The notes beneath the pieces are model-generated. The model was not told the DNA's origin, ran no database searches, and saw nothing but the letters and a program-made list of their open reading frames with translations. Made by a program: the position numbers and the translations under genes. 29,521 bases of DNA. It comes from Fragilaria crotonensis (Eukaryota > Bacillariophyta > Fragilariophyceae > Fragilariales > Fragilariaceae). Positions 856 through 28,874 of the stretch are shown piece after piece (within the stretch, counting starts at the first letter, position 1; the number at the start of each line of letters is the position of its first letter). The DNA lies in NCBI GenBank assembly GCA_022925895.1, contig JAKSYS010000732.1, positions 1 to 29,521 of the forward strand, read 5' to 3'.

Positions 856-3800
856 CTATACCATGTCAGTTTTCCCGTAGTTCCTAGCAGGCGTCTGATT
901 TGCTTTTGGTTTCGCTTTTCCTGGTGCCAGTTTACCCGTATTCCACTTCCCTTCTTCCTTCCTTGTTGCCTCAATAGATCGAGCGGCCCCATACGTATCC
1001 TCCCCACCTGAGTGCTTAGGGTTCGAGTTGTTGCCATTCGCATCAACAAGCTTTCCCCATCTGGATTTTTTGCCTTCTTTGACACGTAACTCGACCGGAC
1101 CGTGCGCAAAAATACACTTATTTCGTTTTTGCATTGGGCAAAACGTTCCTAAACTGCTATCCCAATGGTTGCACAAACGTGTGCGAAACTTTGAATCATC
1201 AGCGCATCGGGCCAGGTTGCCATCTAACTTCTTCAGATTTGAATCACCTCTTCTGATCCATTCGTCATCAGCACGCAACCAACCGCGACTTTTGAAAGTC
1301 TTCGCGGCCGTGCTTCCGTCCCAGATAACGATATCCCCATCCGGGAGAAGAGGCGCTGTCGCGTCCCATTGTCCTTTTTCCATGTCGACGACGTGATTTG
1401 TGTCGGTGGCAACTTGACATTCGGTACTCTCTACAAGAAAATTGTCATCGCGCACCGCACCATTGAGAGTGTCGAACGTTTCATATTTGCGTTCTTGGTG
1501 CGTGTAGGTGTCCGTGCTAGCCTGAATATTCGCTTCGGGGGTCCGGAATTCGCCCCTGTCGAGGAAATCGTCGCACTCGCCTACGTTTGCTAATTCCTTC
1601 GCTTCAAGTCTCCGCCTAGGAAGAATTGGCGTTGGAATCGAGTACTTCTGCGCCAAGGGATCGTCGGCATCAAGGAATTCTTTGCTCAAGCTAAAGCAGT
1701 GCATCAAGAGTCTAGGGAAGCGACCTTCGAAGTATAAAAGTAAGCCGTCTGGATTTGGACCAACTCTCACCTTGACGTGTCCCGGTAGTTCATCATAGTG
1801 ATGATGTTTGTTGCGGATGAGTCGGAGGAAGTCTCGTACAGATGACGGATCGTAGGTACGAAATTTCGACACATTGCTGATCAGATCAGGGTCGAGGGAT
1901 TGATCCCAGGCTGTGCCAACCACTTGCGCCGCATTTCTCTCTATTGCAAAGACATTTGCAGCGAATCGAGAGGATACCTTTTTGCCCTGCTCCACCAATT
2001 GGGCGTCATTTTCGATTCGATCAGAAATGTCACACAGAAACGCCAGCTTTTTCCGTGGACTCCAGAAGAAGGGATGCTCGCAAACCTCTTGTGCCGTGGG
2101 TCGTTGAGTGGCATCCCTGGAAATCATGGCAGTAATTAGATCGTGCGCATCCGGTGATATGTCAAGGAGCTCTTCTGTTGACGTCTTGTTACGCATGATG
2201 TTAACTTCCCGCTCGTACCAATCTCCAAACGGATGAGTTCCAGGGACGAGGGTGCAATGGAAAATGCACCCTAGTGAAAAAATGTCCACGGAACGACTAG
2301 TTCGAGAAGACATCGCGGCATCAAGAGGAGATGTTTCCATTAACGAGTCAGTACGAGAGTTACTTTCACCAGACTTGACAGACGACGATTCAGCAGACCA
2401 TCGAATCGCCATGACTTCTGGCGCCTGCCATCCGACGCTTCCTGGCCCAGCTCCGACCAAACGTGACTCGCAACCATTCACCGATCCCTGAATCGACGCA
2501 GCTCCCAACGTACTCAGTCCGAAGCTACTTTGCCCTGCAAGCTGTTTGCCAAGACCCATATCAGATATCTTTGCAATGTAGCCTCCTTTCTCGTAGCGAA
2601 CGATAAACTCGTCTTCGCCTTTGAGTCCGTCGGGCGTGAAAGCAGCTTTGACTTTCGTTCGTCCTGACCAAGCCAGCAAGATATTGGCTGGCTTGAGATC
2701 CCTGTTGACAACATCGAGGCGTTAGTTCGCTCGTTGATCGGATGAGTAAGTCGCGCACAGTACTACTTACCTATGCACTATCCTCAGAGAGTGCAAGTGC
2801 CGAACGCCGCACGCAATTTGGTATAAAGTCGCCTGGACAGTTTCCCTTAGCTGGGGGTGCTGCAAGGGACCGGACTCCACTGAATGCCTTCTGAGCTCCG
2901 CAATCAAATCGTGCAACGACATATCACATAATTCTAGAGCCAAATATACAAAGTCTCCTTTGACTTCCTTCAGAAAGTATCGAACAACATTGGGGTGCCC
3001 ATCGCTTTCAATGAGCAGCGAGATCTCTCTGTCAGCACTCGCGTGATAGGCCTTCAGCATTCTCTTGACGGCTACTTGTCGACTATCCAACGTCCCTCTG
3101 TAGACAACAGTCCCATGACCTCCGAAGCCCAAAACGTCATCAGTGACTTGAATGACACCAACATTTCGAACTCCATCGCCGTTGACACTGCTTTCAGCGA
3201 TGGCGCTCGTACTTTCGAGAGATGCCATTGGCTGTATCGCAGTCTCCTTCTCTTTTCGCTTCTTTGCCTTGATTCGTCTTCCCATGTCAAATGCCAAGAC
3301 AAAGAGAAGGGCCATCGTGGGTGGAAGCCAGGATTCCATTAACTTGAAGAAATTACGCTTATTCTTGCGAAATTGTTGTAGCTCCAAGAGGTCGCTTTGC
3401 ATGGAATGCATCTGTTGAAAGGGTAGCACTGCTGTTTGGTCTGCAGTCCCATCACTGTCTAGAAAGGATCCTTCTAAGCTGGACACAAAATCATGATTGT
3501 GGTGAATCCCACCTACCAAACATGCAGGGAAATTAGGGTTCGTTGGTCCACAGGTTTTCTTAGCAAGAGCGGAGACCTTGGAATGTTCGTCAGACTTGTG
3601 AGAATAGGTTCCTGTCGCCGGAGTCTTTGCAAGATTAGGAAGCTTGCTACCTATTGCTTTCGATCCGACAGCTGACGAGGCCGGGGCGGTCGAATGGGGC
3701 AAACCAATCGATGTCACAAGCTTGGCTTGAGAAAGTCGTTTCCCAAGCGGCATGGCGAAGAGCTGTCCACTCGATAGCGCACCAACAATTGTCTGCTCAG

Positions 3801-5028
3801 GTTCTTCGGAGGCTTTTATCAGATCCATTTGCCGTTCCAATTGCCGTGCTACATATTCAGGCGAGCTATCGGGTAAAGGAGCATCCGGTAAGATATCCAC
3901 ACCTAGCGAAGTTCCAGTCGACGCCTCCAACGCAAAAGCAACAGGAGTATCAAAAGTTTCGTCAGACACCCAGTCAATACCTCCTGTGTGCGCGTTCCGG
4001 AGCGCAACGTTCCCATTCGGCGTCGCGATTAGCATGGCTAACTGTTTCTTGGCCTCCTCCTTCGTCGGAAGCATCAGGCGAGGTGCGTGAGGTTGCGAGC
4101 GAATATCCTCAATATCATCAACCATCATATCTCGAACACCCATGATTTCCGAGCTAGAAAATTTGACATCCATAGCGCCACTTCTGGCATCGAACAAGGA
4201 AATCGAATAATCGACGCGGCCCACCCAAACAATGTTCCTCCCTTGAAGGTCTGGACCCTCGTCTTGCGACGATGCCACATCGCCCCCCGTCACAACCCGC
4301 AAGATTTCTCCCGTGTCTCGGTCCATGGCTGCTGCGGTAGCTTGTCGGGATCCGACGTAAAATCGACCTCGGGAGTCGACGAAGGGGGCTCGCGCAACCA
4401 ACTCCTTGAGCGTGGACGTTGCCGTGAGCTCCTTGTCACGACCGGCCGTCAAGAAGACCCGGCCATCAACCGAGGGCACAGCGGCCGTTCGAGAATCGTG
4501 GGAGCTTGATTTAGTGGTTGTTGTGGTAGAGACGAGGGGACTAAGTACTTTGGAAGAGTCTGTGCTGTTGGTGGAATCGTCGTTTGCCGGGAGGTCTGCC
4601 TCCATTAGACAAATACCAGATTGTTTCCACAGAACCTTACCCGTTTGACGTGAGAGACCGGCGATACTTCCATCCACGGTCGCTACAACAATAATTCCTC
4701 GACTGTCGTCATCGTTGATCTCTCCATTTAGGAGGGTTTCCGTGGTCCACGATACGCCATGATCAATGTCGTAGTCGTCAGAGACCTCCAATTCTTGTGA
4801 TTCTGGAAATGGATTGCCTTGCGCATCAATATTGACTGAATTGCTGGCCTTTGCCGCAGAAAGTTGCTTTGAGACTACTGCCAGCGACAAGAGCAACCAG
4901 GTATTGACCCAGAGAGCCTTTCGGAGCAATCGATTTCTGGGGCGAGGAGGAACCGCAACGGCGTCTACAACCATAAGGTCGCTCGAAGCGTTCATTCTAT
5001 ACTTTTTCGATTCTGGAGACTCATTCAC
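856..5028 (-). CDS. IRE1: IRE1-type ER stress sensor kinase/endoribonuclease with C-terminal CCCH zinc finger
   Basis: Two exons, 5028-2771 and 2701-856, joined within the HRD motif, encode about 1367 aa without a frame break. Order of parts: hydrophobic signal/anchor near residues 38-53; lumenal beta-propeller-like repeats (about 110-135, 188-245, 265-290, 335-355) with strand patterns such as IIVVATVDGSIAGL and NVALRNAHTGGIDWV; one membrane segment about 567-583 followed by basic residues; kinase with glycine loop 634-642, VAVK lysine 655, HRD 752-754, DMG 800-802 and APE; then the KEN RNase domain (about 964-1093) with RNKHHHY, where N1050 and H1054 align with the human catalytic N906 and H910. 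After an approximately 160-residue linker comes a finger, Cx10Cx7Cx3H (C1263, C1274, C1282, H1286), inside a conserved-looking block up to SGGEDTYGAARSIE. Known role of the family: senses unfolded protein in the ER and cleaves mRNA. The zinc-finger tail is not part of animal, fungal or plant IRE1 and may add RNA binding. Start chosen at the first Met; Met12 is an alternative. Confidence 0.93.
2702..2770 (-). other. IRE1 intron, 69 bp
   Basis: On the minus strand the donor is GTAAGT (2770-2765) and the acceptor ends CAACAG at 2702. Splicing restores the kinase catalytic-loop reading VHR|DLKPAN across the junction, with the arginine codon split AG|G. Without splicing the frame stops just after the donor. 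Confidence 0.93.
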
Positions 5029-9895: not shown

Positions 9896-11437
9896 ATGTA
9901 CTCTTCTCTTCGCATTGCAACCCGTCGAACGGCAGCTCCTTCTCTGGGAGCCGTCCGTAACTTGAATGTCCATGAATACATTTCGATGGAGATTATGAAC
10001 ACTCACGGCATTGCTACACCAAAAGGGTTTGTGGCATCGACACCAGAAGAAGCCGAAAATATTTACTTGAAGGAGTTTGCCAAGCGTACGTTCAACATTA
10101 TTTCTGTCTCTTTGCCTTATGTGTATTGTTCTCCACAAGTAGAAGTTCTTTCATAATTCTTCGGATTGTTCTCACGTACTGAAATGCTCATCTTATTTGA
10201 ATTCCTCAGCCGGATCCACTCCTAAGGATGTCGTCATCAAAGCGCAAGTTCTATCAGGAGGCCGTGGCTTGGGTACCTTCAAGAACGGCTTCAAGGGTGG
10301 CGTCCACATGGTTACCAAGCCCGGCCAAGCCCGTGAGTTTGCTGCGGCCATGCTCGGTCAAGAATTGGTCACCAAGCAAGCACCCAACGGAATCATTTGC
10401 AACAAGGTGTTTTTGATGGAACGCATGTACATGAGGCAAGAAATGTACCTTTCTATCCTCATGGACCGCGCTTCACAGGGTCCTGTTTTGGTTGCATCTC
10501 CTAGAGGAGGAACCTCCATTGAAGACGTTGCCGCATCCAATCCGGAAGTCATCTTTACGGAACCAATTGATTTGATTAAGGGCATTCAGCATGATACCTG
10601 CGTCCGAATGGCGAAGAACCTTGGCCTTGACGAGGGCACGGGACCACATGACAAGGCCGTCGCTTTGATGAAGAATCTTTACAACATGTTTGTTTCCTGC
10701 GATTGCACGCAAGTCGAAATCAACCCATTGGCGGAGACACCAGACGGCGATATTGTCGTTTGCGACGCCAAGGTCAATTTCGACGATAATGCCGAATACC
10801 GTCAGTCCACGATCTTTGCCCGCCGTGACATCACTCAGGAAGATTCGCGAGAAGTTGAGGCGAGCAAATATGATCTGAACTACATTGGATTGGACGGAAA
10901 CATTGGATGTATGGTGAATGGAGCTGGTTTGGCCATGAGCACCATGGTAAGTGTGTCTTGCAAACAGATGATAAAACATTATGTGAGATTAATTTCGGGG
11001 ACGAGGAAGAAACTCACTGGTTGCCTTCTGTCGCTTCTGCCAGGACATTATTCAGCTAAAGGGTGGCAGCCCAGCAAACTTTTGGACGTTGGCGGAGGTG
11101 CTAACGCAACCCAGGTTCAAAAGCCTTTGAAATTCTCAACGCGGACCCTCGCGTCCAAGCAATCCTGGTCAACATTTTCGGAGGTATCATGAGATGTGAC
11201 GTGATTGCGACTGGAATCATCAATGCTGCCAAAAATCGGTCTCTCGAAGCCTATCGTGATTCGTCTGCAGGGTACAAATGTCAATGAAGCCAAGACCCTG
11301 ATTGAGGATGCGGATTCCATATGACGTTGGCAGACGACTTGGAGGATGCTGCCATCAAGGCCGTGGGTGTCGCAGAGATTGCGGCGCAAGCTGCCAAGAT
11401 TCGAGTCGGGATCAAGTTCAATGGATTTCTGTTGTAA
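9896..11437 (+). CDS. Succinate-CoA ligase (ADP/GDP-forming) beta subunit, mitochondrial; exon 3 frame broken
   Basis: Exons 9896-10085, 10210-10946 and 11044-11437 encode the ATP-grasp beta subunit of the TCA-cycle enzyme that converts succinyl-CoA plus NDP and phosphate to succinate, CoA and NTP. The N-terminus ([19 protein letters not shown]) is a basic, acid-free mitochondrial presequence followed by [21 protein letters not shown]. Family motifs are [13 protein letters not shown], the [15 protein letters not shown] block, [16 protein letters not shown] and, in exon 3, the CoA-ligase part with [15 protein letters not shown] and [12 protein letters not shown]. Exons 1-2 are intact. Exon 3 must change frame near 11081, 11120, 11233 and 11311, each beside a short homopolymer, yet stays highly conserved between breaks and ends at a normal C-terminus (KFNGFLL, stop 11435-11437). 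I read this as sequence error, not decay. ADP or GDP specificity cannot be told. Confidence 0.92.
10086..10209 (+). other. Succinate-CoA ligase intron 1, 124 bp
   Basis: Donor GTACGT, acceptor CCTCAG. Joining gives [17 protein letters not shown] in one frame; unspliced reading runs into a stop at about 10156. Confidence 0.88.
10947..11043 (+). other. Succinate-CoA ligase intron 2, 97 bp
   Basis: Donor GTAAGT follows ATG codon 10944-10946; acceptor CTGCCAG at 11043. Joining gives [18 protein letters not shown], the expected family sequence. Confidence 0.9.
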
Positions 11438-12973: not shown

Positions 12974-15900
12974 TCACTGCAACGCGGCATCAATGGGTTG
13001 ATCCTGCACCAAATGCGCCCTCATACCATCATCGAAGAATTTACTGATAGAAACATCTTCTGACAAGCCCTTTCGTCGTCGAGTTTTGATAAGCAGCTCT
13101 CTCGCTAAATGTGGTGGCGGACTGGGTTCCAGTGGATGTAGAATGATGTTCTTATCCAGAGGGTCGCCAGGCACAACATTCCAGTGATCGAACACCGCAT
13201 GAACCATAGCTTGGCCTTGCGTAAACGTCCTTAGATCTGTTTCGAATCCGAAACTATCCAAAACAGGAATGAATCCCTTCACTGAGTACAACATTGACCC
13301 CGAGATTGGACGATCTTGCACAATATGACCTCGCCGCCTAGTCAAAATTGGTTGAATTGAGTCTACCATGTCTCCAGGACATTGAATTTGCAGACGATAG
13401 ATGGGCTCCATGAGACGTGGCGTTGCAGTCAGAAGTGCCGATGCACCGTCCGTCGCGCCGTAGGAATGATTTGACCCCACCTCTATGAATAGGCTTGTCG
13501 GCGAGCGAGGCATTCAGAATCGAATCTTCGTCCCGCGCACCGGTTCTTCGCAGAGGGCCCTCACGAGTCGCCCATTGAAATCCTTGGACAATGCTAGACT
13601 TGCATGTCTTCAAGAGATTCTTGTCAACCTCACTAGGTAGAGTATCATCCAATAGGATGTTCGTTCCATGGGTAGGTGACGCTCCAAATGCCCACACAGA
13701 CCTAGAAGAAAGAAGATCCCAATCAAATTTCTTCTGAAAGAACCGTCCCTGCTTGCGGGTGTCCCAACTTGGATTAATCTTTCCAGCCTCCAGCATCTCG
13801 GCAAGACCGTCGTCTAGTGGCTCTGCAATGAACGTCAACTTGTTCCTCTTATTGGCAGTCTCGGCAAAGCATTTGAGACTGCTGGTTTCAATCACAGTCT
13901 CGCGAAACCCAACGATTGGATCCGAAACCTTGACCTCAATATCAGAGTACACGTGTCGGAGATCGTGCATCATGCAGTCCATGTACAGCTCGCCGGTTCC
14001 AAACAGAACATGCTCCCGCTTTCTTCAACACGGGTTTTCGCCATGGGATACGCCTTGGAGATGCGACGCAACCCCTCCACCATTTTGGCAATTCGCCAGG
14101 ATTTAGCGGCTCTATTGCGAGCTTCATGACAGAGTCACCACCTGCTTGCGGAAACTTGAGCGGCGCAAGATGTGGACCTCATCCTCCTCCTTCGTGGATA
14201 TTGATGCAATCGTGGCTGTTTTGGAGATGGTTGCTTCAATCCCTTCTAACAAGACCCAGTTTCCAGCTGTTGCTCGCGACACAAGAGTTTGTATTCTGCC
14301 ACGGGGGATGGCGACAGCTCCGACAGTCGCGATGCACATATCCTCTTCATCATCCTCGGGAGAGTAACCTTCGCCCAAGACTCGAACTCGTTCCCCCGGT
14401 CGCACGCTTCCTGAATAGATGCGACCAAACGCCGAAAAGTTTTGGCCGTCCTCCGAAGCGTACAGTTTAACAACATGCATCATGAGAGGGCCTTGAGAAT
14501 CGCATTCTAGCATGGCTTGCGCAATCTTTCCGTCCAGCACTCCGCTGTAACACCGTGCCACTTTACCCTTGGCGGCCGCGGATGGAGAAGGGCTGTCAAA
14601 GGGAAAGGGTGACGGTTAGTCCCACAGGGATGCGCCCAAAACTCAAGGAGAATTAGCAGAAGTCACTTACAAGTGTTGCACCACCATATCAACAAAGCCG
14701 CTGGTTGCAGTCTCAAAGAATTTCGAAAGGGCTGCTCGCAACAATGTCCTGGCACTTGCGCGCAATTCGTCCCGGCGTAGCAAAACTCCCACCTTACGCA
14801 GCAGCTTGTTCACGTCCTGTTCTCGTTCTGCCAGACACGCCGAGTACAATTTATAGAGAGGTTCCAACACGAAGGTACAGAACGTGCGCTCGACGCCCGG
14901 AGACTGGCAATTGCGAGCAGATTTGTGAAACAATCTCGATTCCGGATCCAGATAAGAATTTCCCCAGAGGCGCTTGGCAAAGTCGTCAGCTCCAAGATTG
15001 TCGCCCAAGCCATCTTCGCACAAGTGATCAAGATAGAGATTTGCAAAACTTTGTAACGTGAAACACCAACCATGTTGAGCACTAGCAAAGGCGACATTAC
15101 CGCGATCGGGAGATATCTTAGGATAGCGACCGTTCGACGCCTGCGCCACCAAATCATTCACACTCTCCACCAGGTGTAGCAACTTGTAATAGCAGTCACG
15201 CGGCGGCAGTTTTAGTTCCACGATCAATCGGTCCACCTTGTTTATCAACAACGTGATAGGAAGTCCTTCTGAAACAGAATGTCTAACAACCATCTCGGTG
15301 TGAAGCATGATGCCCTCGATAGCATCCAACACAACTACAGCTCCATCGACAGCACGGAGTGCTGCTACACTTTCATCATGAAAGTTGACATGCCCAGGAC
15401 AATCCACCAACGTTACAAGATATGACTTGCCTCTCGTATCAGGCAATATTGTGGAAATGGGTGTGCTGACTAAACTCATTTGGCGTGCTTGTTCACTTTC
15501 CATCTGATCTGCATACCGGGGGCCCTCTCGTGCATTCTGGGATGATACATTGTCTTGCTCGCCGTTGCTATTACTTCCCCACTTGTGTCGTTTCGTCGTT
15601 TCGAGCAGCAAGTCTACAAAGGTTGTCTTGCCCGAATGCAAATGACCAACCAAGGCGAATCCACGTCGGACGCGAGTCGTTTCGTTACCGAATAGAGCAG
15701 TCAAGTAGTTGTCGGTGTATATATAATCGTCTGCTTCGGTGTTTTTGGCTCGATTTGTCTTGGTGGAAACCGGTTCCACGAGTGGTACATTCAAGTCGAT
15801 GGCGTCCTCGTCCAGGACAGCCGTTCGCACGTCATCTCCATAGACTTGGTTCGCACTCGGATAGTGGACCTTATCTTCGTGTAAGACAATGGCTTGCACT

Positions 15901-16094
15901 GGATCTGCTTGACCATCCTGCTCATCATCTTCGACGAGCACCATTTTTTGATCCTGATCGGCCGACACATCAGACGCATCGTCGGGTGCTTGTTCCTCCT
16001 CGTCGTCATCATCATCGGAATCGTCGTCAGAATCCAAGTCCGGACCTATGTAGTTTCCAAACTCGTCGTAGAGATCCTGATCTGCGTCGGCCAT
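12974..16094 (-). CDS. EFTUD2: U5 snRNP GTPase Snu114/EFTUD2 (116-kDa component); second exon frame broken
   Basis: Exons 16094-14671 and 14592-12974. An acidic N-terminus ([20 protein letters not shown]) typical of Snu114 leads into an EF2-like GTPase: G1 GHLHSGKT (150-157), G3 DCPGH (231-235), G4 NKVD (285-288). Then come EF2-like domain II ([19 protein letters not shown]), domain III ([14 protein letters not shown]), domain IV with WAFG and GPL, and domain V ending [19 protein letters not shown], then [19 protein letters not shown]. Snu114 drives U4/U6 unwinding and spliceosome disassembly with Prp8 and Brr2. The first 650 codons are intact. Between about 14160 and 13440 the frame changes at least seven times (near 14160, 14083, 14015, 13550, 13532, 13475, 13440), mostly one missing base in a homopolymer, while protein identity to the family continues. 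Sequence error is the best reading, since the protein is essential. Length after repair is near the usual 970 residues. Confidence 0.93.
14593..14670 (-). other. Snu114 intron, 78 bp
   Basis: Minus-strand donor GTAAGT (14670-14665), acceptor TTTGACAG ending at 14593. Splicing gives [15 protein letters not shown], matching the family's VQH-PSP sequence. Confidence 0.9.
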
Positions 16095-27153: not shown

Positions 27154-28874
27154 ATGCCAGTACCGCCAGCGCTGTTTGTGTTGGGTGGTCCCACGCTCAT
27201 GGCTGCCAAAACTATGGCATTTGAAATGCTGCCTGCTGTAACATCCGCATCAGTGGCTGCGATTTTGGCGAGACTCCTATGGAAACGCCTTCCAGATTGG
27301 GTGAAGGAAGACGTTTCATTTCGCAACAACAGCTCAGGTCATCGTCCGATGTTGAGCGACTTGCGGCGGTACTGGACCGGATACAGGCTTGGATCGAGGC
27401 GTGCTCGGAACAACTCCAACGGCCGGTACCACATTTGTACGCGTCATTTTGATATACTGGCAGCTCATGGCGCAGCATCAGAGGCAAAGATTACTGCGGC
27501 AGAGGAAACAGACCCATCGGATGGTGGGGATAAGCCGGCGTTGGTTGAGGTGACCTCGTCCATGCCAGCGCTGATGTTGACTTTGAAAACTTGAAAGATG
27601 GCGAACTTGGCCCGTGGGCTTACTATATTGATGATGCCGCTGACTTGCAAGCGAGTGGAGACCTTGCACTTTGGTCTCAAGACGTGTGTCTTGCCATCCC
27701 GGCCGGGATCTGTTGGATATTACGTGGCCATCGGAGAGCAAGCCGATGACTCAGCAACAAATGTCTCTCCTGACCAGCCAAAATCGACCATGATACTTGG
27801 AATTCGAGGAACCTCTACTCTGGAAGAACTGCTAACTGATGCGTGTGGCAGGTCAGTATCCTACGAGGGTCCCAATCGCTATGCGGAGGATTCTGGCGAG
27901 GGAATTGGTAACAGTATTCGAATTGAAGTAGTAGCTCGCGAGGTAGATCAAGTGTGTTTTGGCTCAGAATTCGATCGGGTCGGCGACGAATGGGAAGGAG
28001 AAGTGGAAGTAGTCAGTGGTCACGAACGCGTATGTGTTGAACAAGATGGAAATCAGCTTGATGAACACCTCGGCGATTCAAAACACTTACCTGGTAGACC
28101 GCTCCTTCGACGATCTTCGAATCTTGATTCACAAATACGATGTCACGAGGGGATACTGATTTCAGCAAGGCGGCTGTTCTGGCAAGTGCGACCGATAGTC
28201 GAAGAAAAGATTGTTCGGGGATCATCGGCTTGTTATTGTTGGCCACAGTTTGGGGCCAGTGCTGGGTGCTTGTTGGCCTTGATGCTCAGATCTATGTACC
28301 CAGAATTGATCCAAGCAGACCGGTTACATGTCTACGCATTTGGACCTCCGCCAGTCTTGGACTACGACTCGGCCATTGGGGCGTCTACCTACGTCACATC
28401 CATTGTTCATCAATCCGATCTGATTTCGAGGTGCAGTCTAGCTAATTTGACTGTTTTCCTGGAATTCCTAAGAACAGTGTCGTCCGAAGTCTTGGTTGCG
28501 CAAGACTTGGCACCGTCGAACCCTCGAGCTGCTGGAGCTCTACTGATGCAGCTTTCAAAGGGTGACAAAGTGAGCCGTTCTGGTCCGAACAAGATCTTGC
28601 CGACGCCCTGGCTGCGGCACGGGATAAAAGTAGCAATGCGCGACCCAGATCATTTGTATGTTCCTGGTAAAGTCCTTCTTTTGGAATCGACAGGAACGTC
28701 AATCCTCAGCAAGACCTGCAGAATCCTTCTATTGTCGGATCCCGGCGGTACTACTGCTTGTAACTGACGGAAGTACCCCATCTTTGAGTGATTGAAATGA
28801 ACGGGTACCAAATGCTCGGTGACCACACGACAGCATCATACATGGCTGCGATTGATTCGTTGGCTGAAAGTTAG
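27154..28874 (+). CDS. Class 3 lipase, sn1-specific diacylglycerol-lipase type, frame broken
   Basis: Conserved blocks in order, but in several frames: N-terminal helical region (VERLAAVLDRIQAWIEACSE); GPWAYYIDDAADLQASGD; STMILGIRGTSTLEELLTDA, the lipase-3 beta strand with the oxyanion-side RGT; HEGILISARRLFWQV; the nucleophile elbow LVIVGHSLG (28241-28255); GCLLALMLRSMYPEL; VYAFGPPPVLDYD; and YVTSIVHQSDLISRCSLANL, as in diacylglycerol lipases. The probable C-terminus is TASYMAAIDSLAES with stop at 28872-28874. Such enzymes release a fatty acid from the sn1 position of diacylglycerol. Frame changes occur near 27300, 27450, 27570, 27705, 28215, 28255 and 28700-28790. An intron is possible between GRSVSYEG and HEGILIS (27852-28140), where the reading is unlike the family. 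The four-helix membrane part of animal DAGL is not obvious. Confidence 0.82.

Follow-up and report, generated by a model that had tools for sequence, protein, structure and literature searches.

Diatom IRE1 with a conserved C-terminal module around a single CCCH-type zinc finger

The window analysed here, a stretch of 29,521 nucleotides from the diatom Fragilaria crotonensis (GenBank assembly GCA_022925895.1, contig JAKSYS010000732.1), carries on its minus strand (4995..856) an IRE1-type gene that, after removal of one intron, encodes a protein of 1356 amino acids from the first in-frame ATG. IRE1 is the enzyme that cleaves mRNA in response to failing protein folding. Judged from its sequence, this gene is a diatom IRE1 with a conserved C-terminal module built around one CCCH-type zinc finger. 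The module is probably a tethered RNA-docking device for messages that are to be decayed or spliced.

A protein kinase domain followed directly by a KEN ribonuclease (RNase) domain (Ribonuc_2-5A), both above their Pfam cut-offs, identifies the protein as IRE1. Within KEN, the catalytic residues Y1025, R1038, N1039 and H1043 match yeast Ire1 in an alignment to structures 2rio and 3fbv and are invariant in an alignment of 67 rows (the window exon and 66 relatives). A first-pass annotation, made from the letters of the window, had listed the last two as N1050 and H1054; the residues are there, but the numbers had been counted from an upstream GTG at 5028 and not from the ATG. With canonical IRE1 of yeast, metazoa and plants the protein shares the kinase and a KEN domain with catalytic residues, together with a putative lumenal region and one predicted membrane span. 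Canonical IRE1 ends shortly after KEN, whereas the diatom protein continues for 267 residues, of which 132 form the conserved finger module. The domain order of IRE1 is given in the available portion of PMC6025073.

KEN and finger lie in a single reading frame, as had been proposed at first pass. This frame is exon 2 (2701..856, minus strand), in which the stretch from KEN to the tail holds no stop and requires no splice. The linker, put at about 160 residues in the first-pass annotation, consists of about 108 variable residues, and the remaining 48 or so are better conserved and belong to the module. The finger ligands are C1252-x10-C1263-x7-C1271-x3-H1275. Titles and abstracts of the open full-text literature (subscription papers and preprints lying outside this search) yielded, among the papers listed, no description of a diatom IRE1 tail, and none is mentioned in the available portions of PMC9902392, PMC4736632, PMC6025073, PMC4245714, PMC12898128, PMC7955679 and PMC8297711. 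A C3H1 label for the finger may already stand in database annotations.

Occurrence of the module in relatives

Protein searches reached relatives within a length range that share five-residue words with the query, so that IRE1s that are distant or have no tail may have escaped them. A query with the C-terminal 175 residues of exon 2 matched 129 proteins at E ≤ 1 among 473 candidates, with E values down to 6e-100, a likeness well outside chance, and a weakest value among the matches listed of 6e-41. The module in its full-length context matched 149 proteins at E ≤ 10 among 268 candidates (weakest among the matches listed 1e-52). In each case the best 120 matches were taken, and non-diatom relatives could be among the weaker 9 and 29, respectively. 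Among the tail-query matches listed (240 rows, 230 distinct proteins) the KEN Pfam family was found in 234; it is missing from P0031, P0035, P0040, P0042, P0044 and P0075, although five of these six begin close to the end of KEN and still include it.

A query with KEN only, made to avoid selection by the tail, matched 55 of 233 candidates at E ≤ 10, with every match listed, and 54 carry the finger; the other, P0236, stops inside KEN. The tail is thus common to relatives, and the local fusion artefact considered in the first-pass annotation is not what is seen. The pattern R[TS]RLCx10Cx7Cx3H, with the unusual spacing remarked on at first pass, occurs in 234 of the 236 proteins fetched, the exceptions being P0236 and P0012, which corresponds to a frameshifted second copy of the locus described below. 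A strict KEN motif with the finger downstream is present in 226 of the 236, in which between 159 and 892 residues (median 226) separate the KEN tyrosine from the finger.

Eleven relatives bear labels of the transcriptome project MMETSP: six are transcript-named (P0127, P0153, P0169, P0191, P0195 and P0204) and five are MMETSP-numbered EukProt entries (P0132, P0134, P0145, P0229 and P0235). All 11 run from the strict KEN motif through the finger, and a separate finger gene is therefore excluded for those organisms; continuity of the transcript, on which the original proposal depended, holds in these relatives.

The named sources of tailed IRE1 are diatoms, pennate and centric, save for one dinoflagellate label. 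Fragilaria, Thalassionema, Stauroneis, Entomoneis, Amphora, Seminavis, Nitzschia, Pseudo-nitzschia, Cylindrotheca and Epithemia are among the genera, as are Attheya, Chaetoceros, Skeletonema, Cyclotella and Thalassiosira; for five species the taxonomy identifiers were checked. No relatives were found in the viral contigs and prokaryote genome contigs searched. The stramenopile-specific finger family suggested at first pass is, in the relatives found, a module of diatom IRE1, diatoms being the stramenopiles that the searches reached.

Two side observations concern individual relatives. The dinoflagellate label belongs to P0222 (Alexandrium tamarense), which is likely to be diatom contamination of that dataset, because on the kinase and KEN tree its sequence joins Skeletonema, Cyclotella and Thalassiosira. 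In the six proteins without the KEN Pfam family the frame extends beyond the finger tail and encodes there a signal-like, hydrophobic stretch and a region with CxNKDCC and CLSQC motifs; in the three that were scanned (P0031, P0042 and P0075) the extension has a weak likeness, below cut-off, to thioredoxin-like [2Fe-2S] ferredoxin. It may represent an additional fusion, or the frame may simply read through into the adjacent gene.

Conservation and predicted order

Mean pairwise identity was computed on an alignment to the window protein. For the KEN-selected set plus the window it is 0.85 for the finger, 0.72 for the module, 0.65 for the kinase, 0.56 for KEN, 0.37 for the lumenal region and 0.15 for the linker. 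Over all 237 sequences the finger (0.83) and module (0.70) are again highest, followed by the kinase (0.64) and KEN (0.54). The part of the module before the finger, at 0.59, is close to the KEN level. The conservation of the module does not come from tail-based sampling, because selection by KEN should favour KEN. Distances for the module and for the kinase plus KEN are correlated (Mantel r 0.72, reached by 0 of 999 permutations, n = 129 sequences), and the two have therefore descended together.

The finger is flanked by a GW/EW segment before it and by WGKL...GGEDTYGAA after it, with invariant tryptophan and glycine positions on both sides. In a 231-row alignment the cysteine and histidine ligands are practically invariant and the phenylalanine two residues after the third cysteine is present in 231 of 231 rows. 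Additional cysteines are common at positions 1213 (201 of 231 rows; serine in the window protein) and 1241 (195 of 231). The finger is basic, with seven lysines and arginines to two acidic residues.

In an AlphaFold model of the exon 2 context, the predicted local distance difference test (pLDDT) score of KEN is 82-97 by ten-residue blocks, and 74 of the 108 linker residues (381-454 of exon 2) score below 50. A constant module on a variable, predicted-disordered tether is what one would expect of a docking domain.

Affinities of the finger

Against PDB sequences at E ≤ 10 a single module gave four matches, all of them CCCH proteins: 9y10 (0.0032), tristetraprolin (0.071), butyrate response factor 2 (0.37) and Unkempt (1.2). 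A 12-module profile gave six, of which five are CCCH (tristetraprolin 1m9o, 8e-4; 6nzl, 1.2e-3; 9y10, 6.7e-3; 1rgo, 0.022; Unkempt 5elh, 0.49) and one is a fibronectin type III protein (0.62). A Pfam scan of the 12 modules at E ≤ 1 found zf-CCCH_UNK (PF25427) in nine (best E 0.0015), zf-CCCH_2 in three and zf-CCCH in one, together with TSP_1 twice and three other unrelated families once each, which look like chance matches. The conserved block is well defined and is covered by no Pfam model above cut-off in the modules scanned.

The top profile match, weak as it is, is to tristetraprolin/ZFP36 (TTP, TIS11d/BRF), with which the finger shares a K-F/Y-x-T-x-L lead-in before the first cysteine and an FAHG..ELR trailer. 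The diatom finger differs from TTP in its Cx10Cx7Cx3H spacing where TTP has Cx8Cx5Cx3H (a difference common to 234 of the 236 relatives), in being single and not one of a tandem pair, and in its large additional conserved flanks and its fusion to an RNase. Unkempt (UNK) contains six fingers in addition to a RING domain; the likeness here lies in the wider spacing (x9-x6-x3 in the aligned finger of 5elh), in FAHGPxxLR and in the weak PF25427 matches, although the window protein, at 12.5 bits, falls below the PF25427 cut-off of 31.1. The finger thus appears TTP/UNK-like at weak sequence scores, and specificity would not be transferable from either family. Regnase-1 (ZC3H12A), an mRNA endonuclease linked to the endoplasmic reticulum (ER) that has a PIN nuclease and its own CCCH finger, offers a parallel in manner of working; the diatom protein relies on KEN as its nuclease, and its Pfam matches include no PIN family.

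Proposed function and alternatives

That a tail should be better conserved than the RNase to which it is attached suggests that diatoms may have a physical means of docking or selecting the mRNAs that are cleaved. A basic finger with a TTP-like lead-in and trailer would be expected to bind RNA, and the conserved flanks may enlarge the RNA surface, set its orientation or bring in a partner. IRE1 oligomers would gather many such tails near the KEN sites, so that tethering would locally enrich particular mRNAs at oligomerised KEN domains and module-bound RNA would then be cut. In this way the module may choose or retain substrates for regulated decay and, should diatoms splice a bZIP messenger, for that reaction too. 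Substrate docking would be the cheapest account and would suit regulated decay, which in some yeasts runs without a HAC1-like factor, according to the available portion of PMC6025073.

A bolder form of this proposal, offered tentatively and with the balance somewhat against it, is that diatom IRE1 is a self-guided endonuclease, whose tail would read a short linear RNA motif and so define a decay or splicing regulon, in place of hairpin recognition by KEN alone; the module would then have arisen in diatoms and be restricted to IRE1. It has long been asked how IRE1 picks mRNAs other than its twin-hairpin splicing substrate. An RNase with a dedicated, strongly conserved module of RNA-binding type makes target choice by IRE1 directly testable in diatoms, and it indicates that stress signalling in these important primary producers has a layer that has been little described.

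Several observations weigh against RNA docking. No Pfam finger family reached its cut-off in the modules scanned; the window module matches thrombospondin type 1 (E 0.014) better than any finger family (0.15), and a zf-CCCH search of the genome returned 27 places at E ≤ 1 with the IRE1 finger not among them. The tristetraprolin E value of 8e-4 sums two fingers of the chain, and the best single stretch has an E of 0.11. A single finger usually binds RNA weakly. At the position of the usual glutamate of the TTP lead-in KTEL all 231 rows of the diatom alignment have arginine, and two positions beyond the second cysteine 222 of 231 have methionine in place of the usual aromatic residue; specificity for AU-rich RNA therefore cannot be assumed. 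The AlphaFold fold of the module is not confident (mean pLDDT 53.5 alone, 45-73 by blocks in context), and a Foldseek search with this low-confidence model returned 0 matches, which is uninformative either way. Finally, XBP1-type twin hairpins were found at 0 of the 30 bZIP loci of this genome (all matches at E ≤ 0.01, of which 26 exceed the family cut-off, each about 3.1 kb) under four settings of strictness, the scan covering these loci themselves and leaving across-intron, distant and non-bZIP targets outside. The reverse strand gave 0 or 1, and the scanner recovered a human XBP1 control.

Among the alternatives, the one that survives best, although it is rather unlikely, makes the module mainly a protein-interaction or oligomerisation part that either brings in a partner (from decay, the ribosome or the translocon) or controls how IRE1 clusters, with the finger in a structural role. 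The 132 conserved residues far exceed the finger, the tryptophans and glycines on both sides are invariant, neither AlphaFold nor Foldseek assigns a fold, and recruitment of decay factors is also a property of the TTP and Unkempt families of CCCH proteins; yet the best conserved part is the finger proper (0.85), and it is basic. Improbable by comparison is a module that senses cytosolic zinc or redox state and gates the RNase: the near-invariant ligands and the frequent cysteines at 1213 and 1241 would suit such a sensor, but invariant ligands are expected of any zinc finger, and position 1213 is serine here. A separate CCCH gene read through from IRE1 by an error of gene model or assembly, for which only the frameshifted second copy speaks, was rejected as extremely improbable on account of the unbroken frame from KEN to tail, the 226 of 236 relatives and 11 transcriptome-labelled relatives that have both features, and a module search of the genome that found only the IRE1 locus.

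Assembly copies and ligation enzymes

The published genome of F. crotonensis SAG 28.96 comprises 61.85 Mb in 879 nuclear contigs, assembled from nanopore reads with Canu and polished with Pilon, and is 81% complete (PMC9476933, from the available portion). The assembly searched here has 881 contigs and 62.1 Mb. At E ≤ 1 the module search met the IRE1 locus in two assemblies, one in contig C705 (the window) and the other (L002) at the end of contig C136 (82693-85386 of 85,386 bases). Aligned over 2721 columns, the copies show 98.8% identity and differ by 5 mismatches and 22 gap openings. Because mismatches are few and gap openings many, the C136 copy looks like an unpolished long-read duplicate at a contig end and not a second gene, and an IRE1 paralogue in this genome was rejected. 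A frameshift in the C136 copy falls within the finger, and the corresponding GenBank protein P0012 has a broken finger, so that the annotation there is misleading.

RtcB and archease had no match in this genome (controls positive in 9 and 6 of 14 genomes), whereas for two further RNA-ligase families the controls were as empty as the search, so that the result carries no weight. Absences in this genome are weak in any case, because the published assembly is incomplete to the extent given above. The Tpt1 2'-phosphotransferase (E 5e-56) and a tRNA endonuclease are present, and tRNA ligation may follow a route of the yeast or plant type. The ligation findings do not decide between splicing and decay.

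Gene layout and neighbouring features

The coordinates of the IRE1 gene are collected in Table 1. The signal-like hydrophobic segment of exon 1 lies at about residues 27-43, and hydropathy peaks near residues 552-572. In the lumenal region the propeller-type matches, both weak, are to PF13570 (E 5.7e-6) and PF13360 (E 8.3e-4).

Table 1. Parts of the IRE1 gene and protein, with positions in the window
Feature	Position	Strand	Basis or remark
Exon 1: start ATG (4995), signal-like hydrophobic segment, lumenal region, membrane span, kinase N-lobe to HR/D	2771..4995	-	
Intron, 69 nt, GT-AG, splitting codon 742 (HR/D, kinase catalytic loop)	2702..2770	-	Identical intron sequence in duplicate copy L002
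Exon 2: kinase C-lobe, KEN, linker, module, C-terminus, stop	856..2701	-	
ER-lumen region, residues 60-560, end overlapping membrane span	3316..4818	-	Propeller-type Pfam matches below cut-offs
Membrane span, residues ~556-572, basic cluster after	3280..3330	-	Hydropathy
Protein kinase, residues 612-955, intron inside	2062..3162	-	PF00069 118.7 bits, cut-off 31.7
KEN RNase, residues 960-1089	1660..2049	-	PF06479 115.3 bits, cut-off 23.3; alignment with yeast Ire1 structures
Acidic variable linker, residues 1090-1197 (108 residues)	1336..1659	-	21 D+E, 11 K+R; mostly predicted disordered
Conserved C-terminal module, residues 1198-1329 (132 residues)	940..1335	-	
Cx10Cx7Cx3H finger, lead-in KFRTRL, trailer ELRV, residues 1246-1282	1081..1191	-	C-to-H core 1102..1173
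Variable basic C-terminus, residues 1330-1356	859..939	-	

Immediately upstream of IRE1 lies a 10-codon open reading frame (ORF) on the same strand (4992-5024, ATG at 5024), the TGA of which overlaps the IRE1 start codon (ATGA); control by termination and reinitiation is possible at such an overlap. Elsewhere in the window, ORFs of the U5 small nuclear ribonucleoprotein GTPase EFTUD2/Snu114 type occupy 12974-16094 on the minus strand, with the EFTUD2 N-terminus and GTP_EFTU in one and EFG_C in another. The plus strand carries an ATP-grasp protein (PF08442, as in succinyl-CoA ligase beta) at 10197-11192 and a class 3 lipase at 27598-28767.

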